37,051 nucleotides of DNA, taken from a virus. Position numbers and translations under genes: made by a program. The notes beneath the pieces were generated by a model. It was not told where the DNA came from. It made no database searches and worked only from the letters and a program-made list of their open reading frames with translations. The stretch is from positions 1-37,051 of IMG/VR virus record IMGVR_UViG_3300042924_005426; one strand, written 5' to 3'. The stretch's first letter is position 1. Every line of letters starts with the position of its first letter. This document shows positions 1,155 to 8,031 of the stretch, in pieces.

Positions 1155-3323
1155 TCAGAACTCGGACAGGTCGAGGGGGACGCGGACGCGCTCGGTGGGT
1201 GTCGTCGGGGTGGCCTCCTCGGCCTCTGACCGCGTCCCCCCCCGACCCCTACTACGTAGGGGGTCGGGGACGCGGGGGACGCGGTCAGATTCGGGGGTCC
1301 CGAGGACCGCGTCCCCGATCAGCGGGACGCGGTGGGGACGCGGTGGGACGCGGTCGGTCGATTCTGAGTTATCCACAGGCTGCGGTTCGTCGCGGAAGGG
1401 GGTCACCGAGGTGTAGGTCGATCCCTTGGCGGTGCCCTGCTGGGCGACGAACTCGTCCTCGACGAGGCACACGATCGCCGTGCGGATCACCTCGCCCTTG
1501 CCCTGCACGTTCTGCTCGATCTGGCGCGCCGAGGTCGGCCCGGCGGCCTCCAGGTACTCCGACACCCGCTGCATGTACATGGTCGGGCGGAACCGCTCGG
1601 CGGGCGCGACGAGCTCCACCACGACGCGTTGGCCGGCGTTGTTGATCGTCGCCGTGGCGACCTGGTGGCCGCGCTGGTAGGTGCCGTGGCGGTCCTTCGC
1701 GCATGTCACCTTGAGCTTGCCGTCCTTGGTCTTGGTCGGCGCCACGATGACGTCGACGCCGTAGGCCGCACCGTCGATGGCGGCGAGCTTGCGCTGCGAT
1801 CCGATCGCCCACAGTCCGCGGTCGTCTTTGGACTTCGTGACGTGGTCCAGGCCGATGACCGCGGCGCCGCTACGGGTGAGCATCCGCGGTAGCCGGCGGA
1901 ACCACTGCGCCACGGCGTCGTCGTCGTTGGGTGGGAGCCCTTCCACGGCGAGGGACTCGCCGACCGAGTCGATGACGACCACGTCGGCGTCGAGCGCCTC
2001 GAGCAGGTCATGGGCGGCGAGGTCGACCTTGCCGCCCTTGGTCACGAGCGGGCCGTCGGGGTGGACGTAGCGGAAGCTGGCGCGGATCTGGCGGTCGGTG
2101 AGTCCCACCAGGCGCAGGCGGTGCACCGCGGCGACGGCGGTGTCCTCGTAGTCGATGAACGCCCCGATGCCGCCGCCGTGGATCACCTCGGCGAGTATGT
2201 GTAGGGCGAGCCACGTCTTGCCGCCGCCGGGCTCGCCGCTGATGGAGTGCACGCGCCCTGGGTAGATGAGTCCCTGCCCATCGCTGCGCACGCCGATGGT
2301 GGGCGTGGGGGCGACGTAGTCGCCGTCGAGGATGTCCCCGAGGTCGACGAGCTCCCACCCGCCGACCGGGTCGGCCAGCTCGGCGGCCACCTCGTCGCCC
2401 TGGTGGGCCTGGGTGGCCGGGACGGGTGCGCCGTAGCCGGCGGCGCGCAGGGCGGCCGCTGCGGCGGTGTGGTCGCCGTGGTGACGGGTGGCGGCGACGT
2501 AGCCCAGCTTCGTGTACACCTCGTCGGGTTCGAGGCCGGCGTGGGCCATCGACGTGGTGAAGACCTTCAGGTTGTCGTTCGCGGTGTAGCCGGTGGTGGC
2601 GGACGTGCCGTCGCGGGCATCCTTGCCGGGGCGGGTCCAGTGCCGCTCCCCGGTGCGCCGGTCGGTGTGGGCGAGGGTCCACCCATCGGCGGTGAGGATG
2701 TCACTCCAGTCGACGGCGTCGAGTGCGTCACCGGGCCGGCGCTGTTCGCTGCGCGCGGTGTCGGGCAGTGTGATGCGCGGCGGTGCGGGCGGGTCGTCAC
2801 AGATCAGGTCGAGCAACCACTCGGGCGCCTCGGCGATCTCCTCGCCCTGGCCGGCGTCCCACTGGTAACGGTTGCCGTTGGGGTGCACCGTCGGGGCGAC
2901 GACGATCTGCCCGCCGTCGCCGCGGATGTCGAGCCCTGCGCCGAGGCGGGTGCTCGCGTTGTTGCGGATGCGCCGGCCGTCGGTGGGGTATCGGAACAGG
3001 AAGTGCGTCCCACCCGAGCCGGTGAGGTTCGTCAGGGTGTCGGGCAGCGCCTCGTGGCGCAGCTCGAGCTCGCGGAACGACTCCCACAGGTCGACGTCGA
3101 GTGCGAACACGCCGGATTCGGGGCCGGTGGCGATGCCGACGCCGTGGCCGCGGTACGGCCCGGCGAACCAGGCGACGATGGTGTCCTCGTCGGTGGTGGC
3201 GGCGTTCTGCCATGCCGCCATCGGCGGGCGTTTCGTGCCGGGGGCGATGGGCACCACGCGCAGGCCGCGTCGGGCGTAGTGCAGTGCGAAGGTGAGTGCG
3301 TCGGCGTCATCGGGAACGCTCAT
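1155..3323 (-). CDS. Bifunctional primase-polymerase / AAA+ helicase
   Basis: 722 residues. The N-terminal prim-pol domain (AEP superfamily) shows the metal-binding D-V-D at residues 76-78, SGGTH at 103-107 and the LDIRGDGG strand at 131-138. A RepA/DnaB-like ATPase follows, with Walker A GEPGGGKT at 363-370 and Walker B VVVID at 448-452. It should prime and unwind phage DNA at the replication fork. The ATG overlaps the cytosine methyltransferase stop by ATGA. The last 75 residues are low-complexity (Arg/Pro/Val-rich). Their DNA carries repeated GGGACGCGG elements and a DnaA box, so this tail is probably shaped by an origin rather than by protein function. Assignment is strong; the start is well set by the overlap. 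Confidence 0.88.
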   Translation of the reverse strand: MSVPDDADALTFALHYARRGLRVVPIAPGTKRPPMAAWQNAATTDEDTIVAWFAGPYRGHGVGIATGPESGVFALDVDLWESFRELELRHEALPDTLTNLTGSGGTHFLFRYPTDGRRIRNNASTRLGAGLDIRGDGGQIVVAPTVHPNGNRYQWDAGQGEEIAEAPEWLLDLICDDPPAPPRITLPDTARSEQRRPGDALDAVDWSDILTADGWTLAHTDRRTGERHWTRPGKDARDGTSATTGYTANDNLKVFTTSMAHAGLEPDEVYTKLGYVAATRHHGDHTAAAAALRAAGYGAPVPATQAHQGDEVAAELADPVGGWELVDLGDILDGDYVAPTPTIGVRSDGQGLIYPGRVHSISGEPGGGKTWLALHILAEVIHGGGIGAFIDYEDTAVAAVHRLRLVGLTDRQIRASFRYVHPDGPLVTKGGKVDLAAHDLLEALDADVVVIDSVGESLAVEGLPPNDDDAVAQWFRRLPRMLTRSGAAVIGLDHVTKSKDDRGLWAIGSQRKLAAIDGAAYGVDVIVAPTKTKDGKLKVTCAKDRHGTYQRGHQVATATINNAGQRVVVELVAPAERFRPTMYMQRVSEYLEAAGPTSARQIEQNVQGKGEVIRTAIVCLVEDEFVAQQGTAKGSTYTSVTPFRDEPQPVDNSESTDRVPPRPHRVPLIGDAVLGTPESDRVPRVPDPLRSRGRGGTRSEAEEATPTTPTERVRVPLDLSEF
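1177..1353. repeat. Iteron-like cluster: eight GGGACGCGG copies (putative replication origin)
   Basis: The 9-mer GGGACGCGG occurs on the plus strand at 1177, 1267, 1276, 1324, 1335 and 1345, and as its reverse complement at 1230 and 1307 (leftmost base given). The best extended form is GGGGACGCGGTC. Intervals of 9, 11 and 10 bases put copies about one helical turn apart. Because intervals of 10 and 11 are not multiples of three, the copies are read in different codon phases, so the DNA rather than the peptide is repeated. The cluster lies within the 3' end of the primase-helicase gene, close to a DnaA box and a hairpin. Confidence 0.65.
1240..1269. repeat. Hairpin inside the iteron cluster
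   Basis: CCCCGACCCCTAC (1240-1252) pairs with GTAGGGGGTCGGGG (1256-1269) with one bulged G and a 3-base loop. It sits in coding sequence of the primase-helicase tail between inverted and direct GGGACGCGG copies. This fits an origin structure such as a priming or initiator site. Confidence 0.5.
1369..1377. promoter_or_regulatory. Perfect DnaA box TTATCCACA
   Basis: TTATCCACA matches the bacterial DnaA-box consensus at all nine positions. It sits 15 bases beyond the last GGGACGCGG copy, within a locally AT-richer stretch (attctgagttatccac) in an otherwise GC-rich gene. It encodes part of a V-D-N-S segment in the primase-helicase tail. Together with the repeats it suggests host DnaA helps to start phage replication here. 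Confidence 0.6.
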
Positions 3324-4495
3324 CTGTCGGCGGTCGTCCTGTCTTCGATGCGTCGGCCGATCCATTCGGCGACCGGGGCGACGACGCCGTTGCCGCACAT
3401 GCGGTAGCGGTGCGAGTCGGCGATCTCGGTGCCGTCGGCGCGGTAGCGGGTCCAGTCGTCGGGCCAGCCCATGAGCCGCTCGCACTCGCGTGGGGTGAGG
3501 CGGCGAACGGCACGGTCGGCCAGCACGGCGGCCGACGCGCTGCCGGTTGCGGACCCGGTGCCGAGGGCGTGGCACACGTCGGGGCTCGAGATCGGATCCT
3601 GCGTCGGGTGGAACGACACAGGCACGACACTCCCCTCGAGCACTTCTTGGAGGTCGGCATCGAGCTCTGGCCGGCCGATCGTGCGGCCGTACGCGGCGGT
3701 TAGGGTTCCGACGGTTTGGTCGCCGCTACCTGAGCGAGCGCCTTCTCGAGGTACGCCGGGAGCGGCTTGCCCCGCTTCCCGGCTCGGCGCAGGATTCCCG
3801 CGCACGCCTTCGGGCTCAAGTAGTACCTCGGGCCGACACTGTCCTCGAGGACCTGCGACAACGAACACACGGCGGCGTCGTTGGGCCACTCCGAACCAGC
3901 GAGCGTCAAGCAGCCGCCAGACTGCCGTTCGCTTGGGTCCGACCACCACGCCTGCGGTGCGCCACCCGCCATCGGGCACGTCGGGGAGTGTGCCGGTGAG
4001 TCCCCACAGCACGGCAGCGAAGTCGGCACCGTCGTTGCTGGAGAAAGCTCCAGCGACGTTCTCCCACAGAACCCAAGGGGCAGCGACTGCATCAGCGATA
4101 CGGCACTGGTGCCAGAACAGTCCGCTCCTGCTGCCATCCAGGCCGCCACGGCGTCCAGCCACGGAGAGGTCTTGGCAGGGGGATCCTCCTGCCACAAGGT
4201 CAACTCGTCCACGCTCGACTCCTCCACAATCCACACAGCGATCTGTCGTGATGCCCTCGTCCCGAGCGCCGGGACGCACTCGGTCATTTGCACCCAGTTG
4301 GTGTTCAGGTAGTCGAACGCATGAGCACGCCTGGACATCGGTTACGTCCTCCCAGATGGGCACGTCGGGCCAGTGGCGTGCGAGCACGCTGCGGGCGGTC
4401 GGGTCGATCTCGCACATGCCGACGATGTCCATGCTGGCGGCGTCGAGGCCGCGGTCCATGCCGCCCGCCCCGCTGAACAGGGACAGGACGTTCAC
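3320..4495 (-). CDS. C5-cytosine DNA methyltransferase (Dcm-like)
   Basis: 391 residues from a GTG that overlaps the RusA stop (GTGA). Motif I is LFSGAGGMDRGL at residues 6-17. The catalytic Cys107 is in GGSPCQ (motif IV), ENV at 145-147 is motif VI, QRRRRVF at 205-211 is motif VIII, and a late CGNG segment is motif X. It would methylate cytosine in phage DNA, probably to escape host restriction. Two cysteine pairs (57/59 and 87/90) between motifs I and IV look like a small zinc knuckle. Third-position GC drops in the middle (33 of 60 codons over 3721-3900 by hand count), where another ORF overlaps in a different frame. All key motifs are intact. Confidence 0.9.
   Translation of the reverse strand: MNVLSLFSGAGGMDRGLDAASMDIVGMCEIDPTARSVLARHWPDVPIWEDVTDVQACSCVRLPEHQLGANDRVRPGARDEGITTDRCVDCGGVERGRVDLVAGGSPCQDLSVAGRRGGLDGSRSGLFWHQCRIADAVAAPWVLWENVAGAFSSNDGADFAAVLWGLTGTLPDVPDGGWRTAGVVVGPKRTAVWRLLDARWFGVAQRRRRVFVVAGPRGQCRPEVLLEPEGVRGNPAPSREAGQAAPGVPREGARSGSGDQTVGTLTAAYGRTIGRPELDADLQEVLEGSVVPVSFHPTQDPISSPDVCHALGTGSATGSASAAVLADRAVRRLTPRECERLMGWPDDWTRYRADGTEIADSHRYRMCGNGVVAPVAEWIGRRIEDRTTADR
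3700..4338 (-). CDS. Nested gene in an alternative frame of the methyltransferase
   Basis: 212 codons on the same strand as, and wholly inside, the C5-methyltransferase gene (its residues about 53-265), one frame away. The ATG at 4338 is preceded by GGGAGGA with 8 bases of spacing, a near-ideal ribosome binding site. Over 3721-3900 the nested frame has G or C at 52 of 60 third positions against 33 of 60 for the methyltransferase frame. The C-terminal part, with AAVCSLSQVLED and then YYLSPKACAGILRRAGKRGK, resembles from memory a conserved hypothetical family in phages and prophages, often near cytosine methyltransferases. Function is unknown. The alternative is that the frame is conserved only as a by-product of methyltransferase coding, but the ribosome binding site and codon bias argue against that. 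Confidence 0.55.
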   Translation of the reverse strand: MSRRAHAFDYLNTNWVQMTECVPALGTRASRQIAVWIVEESSVDELTLWQEDPPAKTSPWLDAVAAWMAAGADCSGTSAVSLMQSLPLGFCGRTSLELSPATTVPTSLPCCGDSPAHSPTCPMAGGAPQAWWSDPSERQSGGCLTLAGSEWPNDAAVCSLSQVLEDSVGPRYYLSPKACAGILRRAGKRGKPLPAYLEKALAQVAATKPSEP

Positions 4496-4857
4496 GCTGC
4501 ACCGTGCATCGGTGTGCAGGTGACGGTGACGAGCTCGCCGCCCACAACAAGGTCGGGTTCGAGGCACCGCACCCACGCCGGGGTGTCGTCGGGCCAGAGG
4601 CCGGCGTCGACCAGGCCGTCGATGATCGGTTTCACCGTGGGGAACCAGTTGTGCGGGTCGCGGCGACGGTTGCCGACAACGGGCAGGGCGACAGTGACGA
4701 TCGACGGGCCGGGGAACGTGACGCCCTCGGTGCGCACCCACCGCATCGCCGCCTGGCCGGCGGCGTCGCGCCATGCCCTACTGATCTTCGATCGTTGCGC
4801 CCAGTGCAGACGCTGGTTCATCGTGAGCGCCTGCGCCGGCGGGGGGAATGCGATCAC
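4492..4857 (-). CDS. RusA-like Holliday junction resolvase
   Basis: 121 residues from a GTG overlapping the upstream stop (GTGA). The pattern is that of RusA: an N-terminal proline-rich strand, N-Q-R near residue 14, conserved Asp and Asn in RRDPHNWFPTVK around residues 63-74, then IIDGLVDAGLWPDD with acidic residues that bind metal. RusA nucleases resolve four-way junctions during recombination and clear branched DNA before packaging. It lies between the methyltransferase and a small helical protein in the replication operon. Assignment is confident. Confidence 0.85.
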   Translation of the reverse strand: MIAFPPPAQALTMNQRLHWAQRSKISRAWRDAAGQAAMRWVRTEGVTFPGPSIVTVALPVVGNRRRDPHNWFPTVKPIIDGLVDAGLWPDDTPAWVRCLEPDLVVGGELVTVTCTPMHGAA

Positions 4858-5075
4858 TTGATGTCCTCGAGTCGGGCGACGGCGTCGAGGACGTCGGCCG
4901 CGGCGCGCCGCACCCATCGCACGTCGGGGTGATCGTCGAGGGCGTCGAAGGTGTCGCGGTCGAGCAGCTCGACGATGCGCTGCGCCGCCCACCGGGCGTC
5001 ACGATGAAGCTCGGCGCGCAGCGCATCGCGACGGCGGAGCTCCGACATGATGTCGGAGTACATCGACTCGCTCAT
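4854..5075 (-). CDS. Small helical protein, unknown
   Basis: 73 residues, starting at an ATG in an ATGA overlap with the helicase-methyltransferase stop and ending in a GTGA overlap with rusA. It is rich in Arg, Ala, Asp and Leu, with two amphipathic helices and no cysteines or membrane segments. Translational coupling to RusA suggests a partner or accessory in the same process, but this is inference. I do not recognise a family. Confidence 0.65.
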   Translation of the reverse strand: MSESMYSDIMSELRRRDALRAELHRDARWAAQRIVELLDRDTFDALDDHPDVRWVRRAAADVLDAVARLEDIK

Positions 5076-7633
5076 GCCGGCACGTCGTCGAACAGGCTCA
5101 TGCGCTGCCCGATCTCACGCTCGCGCTTGACGAGGTTCCGACACGCCGTGTCGAAGTAGCTGCGCTTCAGCTCGACGCCGTAGTACCGACGGTCGGCGCC
5201 GAGCGCCGCCCACCCCTCGCTGCCGATGCCGCCGAAGGGCGAGAACACGAGCTCGTCGGGGTTCGACCACAACAGGACGCACCGCTCGATGAGCGAGAGC
5301 TGCAACGGGCAGACGTGGCGCTCCTCGGGGCGCTCCTTCGCCACCTGGGCGTTGAGCACGTCAGTCTCGCGGATGCCGTGCCACGTCGACTGCTCGCCGT
5401 CGGGGTAGATCCACTGCCGCCACTGCTCGGCCTCGGCGTCGGCCACCTCGTCGGGTTCGTACCAGATCGAGTTCATCCAGGCGGTGTGCCGCTCGAAGGT
5501 GTGACCCTCGCGAGTGTGGGTCACCGGCGCCTCGTTCGCGCCCGGCGCGGTGAACACGAGCAGGTACTCGCCGGTCTGCGGCATCGAGTTGGCCGCGTCG
5601 CGGATCGCCGTGACGTGCAGCAGCGAGGTTTCCTTGTTGCGCGTCGCCTCGAGCTGCGGATTCTTGTGGATCGTGATGCGGCGGTGGTAGTGGAACCCGG
5701 CATCGACCATGCCGGCGCGCAGGTCCGACGGGAAGTCGTAGGCGTGGCGGTAGCCGCTCGTGTTGGCGAAGCGAATGATCTCCTTGCAGTGGATCGCCAC
5801 GATTCGGCCCGGCCGCATGACGGGCAGCAGGCGCTCGGCGAAGGTGCGCCACTGGTAGCGGAACTCGGCGTCGCCGCGGACGTTGCCCATGTCCTCGAGC
5901 TCCTGGGAGTAGCTGTAGAGGGCGGCGAACGGCGGTGAGAACACCGACAGGTCGACACTCGCCGGCGTCATGTCGGCCATGTGGGCGAGCGAGTCGCCGT
6001 AGATCATCGTCCAGCGGTCACCGCTGCGGCGGTCGAGCTCGGACTTTGGGGCGGTGGACACGATACGAACCTCCGAGGTGTCGCGTGGGCGGAGCCGTTC
6101 GACGACGGCGGTTTCGATCTCGTCGGCGTCCCCCTGGAACGTCGACTGCTTGTTCATCACGTTCTGGCAGATCGCCTCGTCGAGGGCGGTCAGCGGGACG
6201 TAGACCTGCACCGCCTTCGTCTGGCCGAACCGGTAGCTGCGCCGGATGCACTGGTAGTACCGCTCGAAGCTGTCGGTGATCGTCGAGAAGACCTGCACCG
6301 AACACGCCTGGAGGTTGACGCCGAACCCGAACATGGCGGGCTTCAGGATCAGCACCCGAGGCGCCTCGGGGTCACAGCGCCGGAACCCCTCGATGGCCTC
6401 GTCGCGCACCGCCGGCTTCACCTTGCCCGACAGGTGGCGCGAACCGGGGATCATGGCGGCGAGCTGGTCGCCCTCCTCGTCGAAGGTGACCCAGATGATG
6501 ACCTGGTCCTCGGCGTGCTCGCCGTTGACGAGGTCCGCAATCCACGCCGGCTTCAGGGTCGGATAGCGCTGGACGACCTTGCCGTCACCCAGCTCGAACC
6601 CGTGAGCGATCTGCATCATCTTCGTGCGCGACGTGATGCCGCCGGGTGTCGCGCCGAACAGCGACGGTTGGTCACCTGTCTCGTGCATGCGCGCCGCGGT
6701 GGTCTGTTCGTCGGTGAGCGCGACGACCGGGAACCGCTCGGTCATCTCGGGCAGGTCGGCGAGGTGATCGGCGAAGCCCCAGCGCTTCGGGTCGCGCACG
6801 AACACGGCCCAGCTCGCCAGGTTGGCCGCCCAGGCGTCGCGGGCGTGCGGCTTGAACTGCCAGTCACCGTCACGGTTCATGAAGTACGCCGTCAGGTACT
6901 CGGTGGTGCTGCGCACCTGGTCGAGGAACACGGCGTGCTGGGCGAACTCGGTGCGCTGGTTCGGCGCCGGCGTCGCCGAGCAGGCCAGCTTCCAGCGAAC
7001 GCCGGCGAACGCCCGCATCACGGCGAACTTGCGCACGCCGAACGCCTTGAGCATCGACGACTCGTCGAGCACGACGCCGGCGACGTCGAGGTGTTCACCG
7101 CCGAACCGGTCGCCCTTGCCGCCGCCGTCGAACTTCTCGTAGTTCGTGATGGCGATCGGCGTGGGGTGATCGGGGTCGGCGAGCCACGCCTCGAGCGTGG
7201 GTCGGTCGGTGGCGTCGAGCACGATCGGCGCGCCGTAGAACCGCTCGGCCTCGGCGCAGGTCTGTCGGCACACCGACAGCGGGGCGAGGATCATCACCTT
7301 GCCGTTCGTGTGGCGCGCCACGTTCACCGCCCAATCGAGCTGCATGGCGGTCTTGCCGAGGCCGGTGTCGGCGAACAGGGCGAAGCGCTGGCGGTCCAGG
7401 GCGCGCGCCACGATCCACGCTTGGTAGTCGAACAGGTGCGCACCGAGCTGCCACTCGCTGCGCACCACTCGCTCGTCGATGACGCCGACGGCGGCGAGGG
7501 CGTCGGGGTCGACCCACACATCGCCGCGGTCGTCGATGAACTCGTACTCACCCGCTGCGCGCAGCGTGATCAGGTCGTCGTAGCCCTCGAGCTGGGCGCG
7601 CCAGCGTGGGCCGGTTCGGTCGGTGAGGATCAC
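5072..7633 (-). CDS. SNF2-type helicase fused to a DNA methyltransferase
   Basis: 853 residues from a GTG overlapping the WhiB stop (GTGA). The N-terminal superfamily 2 helicase shows DTGLGKT (89-95, Walker A), LDESS (189-193, in place of DEAH), SATP (219-222, motif III) and QCIRRSYRFGQ (461-471, motif VI). After a linker near residues 500-540, a beta-class amino-methyltransferase follows: catalytic SPPF at 566-569 and SAM-binding FSPFGGIGS at 797-805, placed in the C-terminal half as in circularly permuted enzymes. It would methylate N6-adenine or N4-cytosine, with the helicase perhaps translocating along DNA. Both halves look intact. No endonuclease domain is visible, so this is not a complete restriction enzyme. 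Confidence 0.87.
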   Translation of the reverse strand: MILTDRTGPRWRAQLEGYDDLITLRAAGEYEFIDDRGDVWVDPDALAAVGVIDERVVRSEWQLGAHLFDYQAWIVARALDRQRFALFADTGLGKTAMQLDWAVNVARHTNGKVMILAPLSVCRQTCAEAERFYGAPIVLDATDRPTLEAWLADPDHPTPIAITNYEKFDGGGKGDRFGGEHLDVAGVVLDESSMLKAFGVRKFAVMRAFAGVRWKLACSATPAPNQRTEFAQHAVFLDQVRSTTEYLTAYFMNRDGDWQFKPHARDAWAANLASWAVFVRDPKRWGFADHLADLPEMTERFPVVALTDEQTTAARMHETGDQPSLFGATPGGITSRTKMMQIAHGFELGDGKVVQRYPTLKPAWIADLVNGEHAEDQVIIWVTFDEEGDQLAAMIPGSRHLSGKVKPAVRDEAIEGFRRCDPEAPRVLILKPAMFGFGVNLQACSVQVFSTITDSFERYYQCIRRSYRFGQTKAVQVYVPLTALDEAICQNVMNKQSTFQGDADEIETAVVERLRPRDTSEVRIVSTAPKSELDRRSGDRWTMIYGDSLAHMADMTPASVDLSVFSPPFAALYSYSQELEDMGNVRGDAEFRYQWRTFAERLLPVMRPGRIVAIHCKEIIRFANTSGYRHAYDFPSDLRAGMVDAGFHYHRRITIHKNPQLEATRNKETSLLHVTAIRDAANSMPQTGEYLLVFTAPGANEAPVTHTREGHTFERHTAWMNSIWYEPDEVADAEAEQWRQWIYPDGEQSTWHGIRETDVLNAQVAKERPEERHVCPLQLSLIERCVLLWSNPDELVFSPFGGIGSEGWAALGADRRYYGVELKRSYFDTACRNLVKREREIGQRMSLFDDVPA

Positions 7634-8031
7634 AGCGCACCGCCTCGCCGCCAGGGGCCGCGCATGGCGCGCCGCTCGCGTTCGGATGCGCCACCCCATA
7701 CGCCGATCTGCTCGCCGTGGTCGAGGGCGTAGGCGAGGCACTCGACCGACACGGGGCACCGTGCGCAGATGCCCTTCGCCGCCTCGGTCGGCTCGCCGCG
7801 ATGGGGGTAGAAGATGTGCTGCGGTGCGCCGCGGCACTCGGCCTCGGCGAACCAGTCGGGCGACTCGACGCCGAGCAGGTCGCGCACCTGGATCGTGGTG
7901 GGCGTGACCGGCGCGGCCTTGTTGCGTTTCTGGCGGTAGTCGCGCATCTTGGCGGCGGCGCCCTGGCGGCACTCCTCGCACCGACACCCGTAGCTGTAAC
8001 CGGTCGAGCCGTGGTAGTGGATCACCTTCAT
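7630..8031 (-). CDS. WhiB-family regulator with an extra N-terminal Cys module
   Basis: 133 residues. The WhiB domain has four cluster-binding cysteines at 66, 89, 92 and 98 (CxxC and Cx5C spacing), then GVWGG at 110-114 and a basic tail that contacts DNA. WhiB proteins carry a 4Fe-4S cluster and act with the actinobacterial sigma factor. Phage copies can alter host transcription or superinfection. Residues 6-30 hold an unusual added motif (HGSTGY, then C16, C18, C21 and R) that resembles the free-standing 69-residue protein at 20154. The start ATG overlaps the upstream stop (ATGA). Confidence 0.85.
   Translation of the reverse strand: MKVIHYHGSTGYSYGCRCEECRQGAAAKMRDYRQKRNKAAPVTPTTIQVRDLLGVESPDWFAEAECRGAPQHIFYPHRGEPTEAAKGICARCPVSVECLAYALDHGEQIGVWGGASERERRAMRGPWRRGGAL

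Follow-up and report, generated by a model that had tools for sequence, protein, structure and literature searches.

Phage C5-cytosine DNA methyltransferases (MTases) are plausibly tied to restriction evasion, and one two-polypeptide C5-MTase, M.EcoHK31I, reportedly has its beta gene nested in another reading frame of the alpha gene. Same-strand nested genes of 150-210 codons that are conserved between bacterial phyla are, to our knowledge, few. C5-MTases with a second polypeptide are already known, as are out-of-frame genes in phage methylases, the latter exemplified by ShiLan, in which the out-of-frame gene within a phage methylase encodes an HNH endonuclease, a mobile insertion with a patchy distribution (PMC11855218). 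In M.EcoHK31I, the large subunit carries motifs I-VIII and X and the small subunit carries motif IX, according to PMC3404938, which cites Lee, Kam and Shaw (1995).

Here we analyze an MTase locus in a stretch of viral DNA of 37,051 nucleotides (IMG/VR record IMGVR_UViG_3300042924_005426, positions 1 to 37,051; hereafter the window), in which a 212-codon open reading frame (ORF) is nested within the MTase gene. The locus resembles M.EcoHK31I in that a C5-cytosine MTase gene harbors the coding sequence of a second polypeptide in a different reading frame, a trait that for M.EcoHK31I is itself a matter of report. In M.EcoHK31I, however, motif IX is supplied by the small subunit, whereas the window MTase has a motif IX of its own (RRLTPRECERLMGWPDDW) in the outer frame, and the C-terminal domain of the nested protein is unrelated to that small subunit. 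Because the MTase has its own motif IX, and because its nested family is dissimilar to that of a second phage MTase group described below, the locus does not belong to the M.EcoHK31I type, which it would at most resemble in its mode of action. It also differs from an HNH insertion of the ShiLan type, since the nested ORF lies across core motifs of the MTase, occurs in every relative sampled and has no Pfam or NCBIfam domain.

Layout of the two reading frames

The features of the locus are as follows.

3320 to 4501, minus strand: C5-cytosine DNA methyltransferase ORF, outer frame (PF00145 2e-39, TIGR00675 1.2e-40, phrog_116 1.8e-81, alignment A1)
4347 to 4353, minus strand: GGGAGGA, a Shine-Dalgarno-like sequence 8 nt 5′ of the ATG at 4338, identical in sequence and spacing in L007, a 69% identical relative
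3700 to 4338, minus strand: nested gene of 212 codons in the +1 frame of the MTase, ATG start at 4338-4336, entirely within the MTase ORF
4210 to 4212, minus strand: alternative internal start GTG at nested codon 43, preceded by GGAGGAG, with a start codon there in the five closest sequences
3721 to 3879, minus strand: nested C-terminal domain, about residues 154-206, SEWPNDAAVCSLSQVLE..YYLSPKACAGILRRAGKRGKPLPAYLEKALAQVAA, with conserved columns in alignments A2 and A4 and the strongest synonymous constraint
3452 to 3505, minus strand: MTase motif IX, RRLTPRECERLMGWPDDW, outer frame, outside the overlap, with invariant columns in A1

The MTase probably starts at the GTG at 4495-4493, and its frame holds the complete set of motifs I, IV (PCQ), VI (ENV), VIII, IX and X, as located by the PF00145 and TIGR00675 matches and alignment A1. 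A preliminary description of the window had reported a 212-codon ORF nested in another frame of the MTase, a GGGAGGA eight bases before its ATG and an MTase frame intact with every catalytic motif. These observations are borne out, with the ORF at 3700-4338 on the minus strand in +1, the GGGAGGA at 4353-4347 and all motifs in frame 0. Its count of GC third positions (GC3) over 3721-3900 is exact for the nested frame (52/60) and needs correction for the MTase frame, given as 33/60 and recounted as 32/59. Across the full overlap, GC3 amounts to 167/212 in the nested frame and 127/211 in the MTase frame, with 163/181 in the MTase beyond the overlap; codon choice in the overlap tracks the nested frame.

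The genes adjoining the MTase encode a RusA-like resolvase, a primase-polymerase, a helicase/MTase fusion and a WhiB-like product, and this neighborhood suggests an actinobacterial phage. The fusion (5072-7987, minus strand), an unusual gene to find near a C5-MTase, is an ORF of 971 residues whose first part matches helicases and whose last third matches DNA methyltransferases.

Openness and occurrence of the nested frame

The length of the nested ORF is by itself no evidence in DNA of 70% GC, because synonymous randomization of the window MTase at the gene's own codon usage yields a +1 ORF of 213 codons or more in 9-15% of trials; relatives carry the case. On the window alone, the possibility that 70% GC and the conservation of the MTase protein had produced the ORF by accident, without a second protein, was consequently kept live (P 0.09-0.15), and it was the comparative data that led us to reject it. 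We assembled 76 non-redundant loci picked by frame 0 and delimited the stretch from motif IV to motif VIII by MTase alignment. Within this stretch the +1 frame contains 34 stops versus 268±13 expected after synonymous randomization, and 56 sequences are fully open versus 4.1 expected, while the +2 frame, with 292 stops versus 291 expected, behaves as the null model predicts. The second frame is hence open in relatives well above what the first frame leads one to expect. Some of the +1 similarity does stem from MTase conservation, as shown by a median nested-profile score of 17.7 bits on synonymous-randomized copies, but independent +1 translations score a median of 129 bits, and MTase conservation therefore accounts for a minor share. 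The nested ORF is, moreover, just as open in MTases of 30-50% GC, where the median longest +1 ORF spans 155 codons versus 41 for +2. Contradicted by these results, by the stop counts and by the synonymous-site and codon-position data presented below, a chance origin is exceedingly improbable.

Searches with tblastn returned 149 phage records for the nested protein and 531 plasmid records, mostly from Escherichia, for its C-terminal end; the plasmid matches listed are annotated as Dam-family MTases of P1-like plasmids. All 80 IMG/VR loci retrieved with the nested protein have a C5-MTase in frame 0 and the nested match at +1. Since this sample was chosen on the nested frame, two further IMG/VR samples, which overlap slightly in that a few contigs recur, were drawn on the MTase frame only. 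With alignment A1 as query, the nested ORF was present at +1 in 80/80 loci (E about 1e-19 or better, using a profile trained on other loci), and the window MTase as query yielded another 80/80. In bacterial genomes, the nested ORF lies inside an intact MTase at 79 of 80 loci, whose titles name Pseudomonadota, Acidobacteria, Planctomycetes, Verrucomicrobia, Bacteroidota and Bacillota; many of these loci are presumably prophages. The dmt gene of E. coli phage P1 likewise holds the nested ORF at +1, and its record has no nested CDS. The nested protein is 212 aa long in the window and typically about 145 aa; its C-terminal domain is better conserved than the MTase, with 45-74% identity versus 30-43% in most distant relatives.

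An MTase that had kept its own frame and lost the nested ORF was never seen in the MTase-frame samples, and no stand-alone nested copy away from an MTase was confirmed among the loci analyzed. Thibault gp104 and phage 813R1 were considered as stand-alone copies and rejected, as they sit in split or broken MTases. In Mycobacterium phage Thibault (L168, 1432-1677), gp104 corresponds to the nested frame, which is called there as the gene of a 'hypothetical protein' among fragments named DNA methylase and HNH endonuclease. In E. coli phage 813R1 (L170, 961-3142), a P1-like dmt frame is interrupted before and after the nested ORF, which is itself intact, likely through sequencing error, because the adjoining rdgC gene is also broken. 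Plasmid C5-MTases used as controls have no long +1 ORF in L367, L368 and L372 (80, 37 and 51 codons); those of L369, from a C. difficile plasmid, and L371, from an Enterococcus plasmid, have +1 ORFs of 155 and 182 codons with weak similarity to the nested family, of which they are perhaps diverged members.

For the segment YYLSPKACAGILRRAGKRGK, the preliminary description had pointed to a conserved family from phages and prophages. The family is real, but its members are not independent genes, as the relatives in the loci examined sit at +1 in MTase genes. The accompanying view that constraint in two frames is rare does not hold for this MTase clade, where dual coding is general.

Constraint on both frames and the nested start

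The same description had held that a second gene would be refuted if homologues of the nested protein were found solely as translations of MTase genes and if synonymous variation among MTase homologues were normal. The former is literally the case, yet it is not decisive; synonymous variation decides, and it was not normal. Across 93 independent MTase pairs, taking the last 120 nested codons as the inside of the overlap, synonymous codon change in the MTase frame was 19% inside versus 42% outside, and it was lower inside in 92 of the 93 pairs (Wilcoxon p 6e-17). The reduction is bounded by the second ORF. From about 0.45 upstream, synonymous change falls to 0.11-0.13 at 60 to 31 codons before the nested stop, reaches its minimum of 0.11 some 30-45 codons before that stop, where the nested C-terminal domain is encoded, and returns to 0.40 directly after it.

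Divergence at MTase position 3 drops in these pairs from 0.475 outside to 0.223 inside the overlap, while that at position 1 only drops from 0.238 to 0.183. From 45 to 16 codons ahead of the nested stop, but not in the final bin before it, MTase position 1, the third position of the nested codons, is more variable than MTase position 3. This codon-position pattern argues for protein constraint in the +1 frame and not for an RNA or DNA signal; an RNA or DNA element in place of a protein was rejected, since nested third positions vary more freely and nested positions 1 and 2 are held. The comparative evidence from openness, synonymous depletion and codon positions very strongly supports the earlier proposal of real dual coding, and we regard it as virtually certain that the locus encodes both the MTase and the nested protein, with the two frames each under purifying selection at the protein level.

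The nested start can be examined separately. In a P1-like subgroup, the nested ATG overlaps an MTase Asn/Asp codon, which is NAT in 40 sequences versus NAC in 3; elsewhere in the genes of this subgroup, Asn/Asp codons are NAT 814 times versus NAC 948 times. These counts show that the nested start codon is selected in the subgroup. Closer to the window, nested codon 43 is GTG in the window, L007, L009 and L376 and ATG in L375, preceded by a GGAGG-like sequence in most of these five sequences; L009 has two +1 stops just upstream of it, and L376 also has +1 stops just before the start. The shared codon-43 start had raised the suspicion that the ATG at 4338 was placed too far upstream; against this, the first 43 nested codons show 0/33 synonymous changes between the window and L007, versus 30/92 outside (Fisher p 3e-5), with 8/2/2 changes at MTase positions 1/2/3. 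The ATG at 4338 is thus probably used in the window lineage, as judged from this one pair, and the GTG at 4212 is perhaps a second start.

Two readings of the overlap concern its translation. Selection on a start codon within the MTase frame, together with a Shine-Dalgarno-like sequence, is also what one would see if +1 internal initiation regulated MTase synthesis, through competing or coupled translation, and the product were secondary. The constraint, however, peaks close to the C-terminus, a long way from the start, and tracks nested amino-acid-changing positions, and mere translation would not keep ACAGILRRAEKRGK across phyla; regulation of this kind is very unlikely to be the main explanation. 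Ribosomal frameshifting from the MTase, joining its N-terminus to the nested C-terminal part, would suit a nested frame that is always +1, as a +1 shift needs, but it is less probable still, given that the nested ATG is under selection (40 vs 3), that the part of the nested ORF upstream of the C-terminal domain stays open and under constraint, and that +1 stops stand just before the start in relatives such as L009 and L376. We instead favor an overprinted second protein, whose translation would begin at an internal start codon of its own in the +1 frame of the phage C5-MTase, on the same mRNA.

The nested protein and its possible role

The conserved C-terminal segment of the nested protein reads SEWPNDAAVCSLSQVLE..P.YFLS..ACAGILRRAEKRGK.LP..L..AL in alignments A2 and A4, which reveal no motif IX in the window nested protein. 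AlphaFold models this C-terminal domain as helices and as the sole long part with high pLDDT (about 80-98), with most of the rest at low confidence. Residues 156-212 are basic (pI 9.6; family median 8.9). The protein has no match in Pfam, NCBIfam, PADLOC or PDB, and Foldseek with VIA-align on the nested models gave a best Z of 5.2, to sigma-A domain 2, which is within the noise stated for such models. A weak match links the nested C-terminal region to phrog_16143 (139 aa, 'DNA methyltransferase'; 7.4e-05 for the window and 9.7e-08 for L080), so that nested-frame proteins already sit in some phage annotations; unlike in our reading, phrog_16143 is named after the MTase and is given no nested-frame function.

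More distant phage C5-MTases were taken as controls and proved to have long +1 ORFs of a different kind (L254 1688-2389, L255 1631-2236, L256 1673-2254, L259-L283 and L287-L366). Of 108 loci of this second phage MTase group, 104 have a +1 ORF that shares 100 codons or more with the MTase. These ORFs are filed in databases as phrog_1008, labelled 'DNA methyltransferase', from MTases of Paenibacillus, Mycobacterium and Lacticaseibacillus phages. Like the window ORF, they are nested at +1 in a phage C5-MTase, in the corresponding place, and they often start ..QLTLF. Synonymous change in this group is 0.19 inside versus 0.33 outside (33 of 39 pairs). The motif IX-like sequence LNPxWVEWLMGFPxGWT occurs solely in the +1 ORF in 101 of the 104 loci, and frame 0 there has motifs I-VIII and X and is without IX, a division that agrees with that of M.EcoHK31I as given in PMC3404938. 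The window nested protein has no phrog_1008 match and no C-terminal LNPxWVEWLMGFPxGWT, which places it outside that family, and hhalign gives the two nested families a probability of 0.7%.

The preliminary description had suggested a partner or modulator of the MTase, which is plausible. We propose that the nested product may be a small accessory subunit acting with the MTase; it could, for example, bind close to the variable (target-recognition) region, either to the MTase or to its DNA, the start of that region overlapping the nested C-terminal domain. Such a role would parallel that of the second polypeptide of M.EcoHK31I. We favor it because the two proteins would share one message, are inherited as a unit and were never separated in our samples, and because the sister layout is that of a two-polypeptide enzyme: the second group divides its motifs (101/104 loci) as M.EcoHK31I does in the published account. 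Co-occurrence is nevertheless weak evidence for interaction, since an overlapping gene travels with its host gene whatever its role. The window MTase is itself motif-complete and does not obviously need a partner, and the dissimilarity of the two nested families makes the analogy one of architecture and not of descent. The case for a partner role is therefore evenly poised in our estimation, and we lean slightly towards the explanation as a whole, an overprinted gene encoding an accessory MTase subunit.

The main rival accepts that the nested product is translated and selected and makes it an independent accessory protein that merely shares MTase DNA, for instance one that counteracts a restriction or type IV system with which the host senses methylated DNA, or one that regulates the operon. 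The basic C-terminal domain, the higher conservation of the nested domain relative to the MTase and the plausible tie of phage C5-MTases to restriction evasion all fit such a protein. It shows no similarity to any PADLOC defense model or annotated family, however, and a useful lone gene should eventually appear as a stand-alone copy, none of which was confirmed in the loci analyzed; we consider this rival rather unlikely. Returning to the accessory subunit, the more specific statement that the clade extending from P1 dmt to several phyla obligatorily encodes an undescribed +1 protein serving as a non-catalytic subunit that controls the MTase is put forward tentatively, as falling a little short of an even chance. 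If true, this overprinted partner would differ from the M.EcoHK31I subunit that carries motif IX, and partners of two different kinds would have arisen within one enzyme family. Taken with the motif IX group, the data suggest that C5-MTases repeatedly encode a partner in a second frame.

We found no report of the nested family in motif-complete phage MTases in the open-access literature searched. Hundreds of phage genomes, and the textbook phage P1, contain the nested gene, apparently without an annotation for it, and past mutations in dmt-type genes may have struck two proteins. Annotation of phage MTases overlooks or mislabels a conserved protein, PHROGs labelling such proteins 'DNA methyltransferase'. 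In Paenibacillus phage Toothless (L285), the overlapping frames at 1186-2256 and 1388-2092 are both annotated 'DNA-cytosine methyltransferase', and in Mycobacterium phage Llama (L286, 1201-1960) the annotation splits the MTase into two genes, with frame 0 stopping early and motif X lying in +1.
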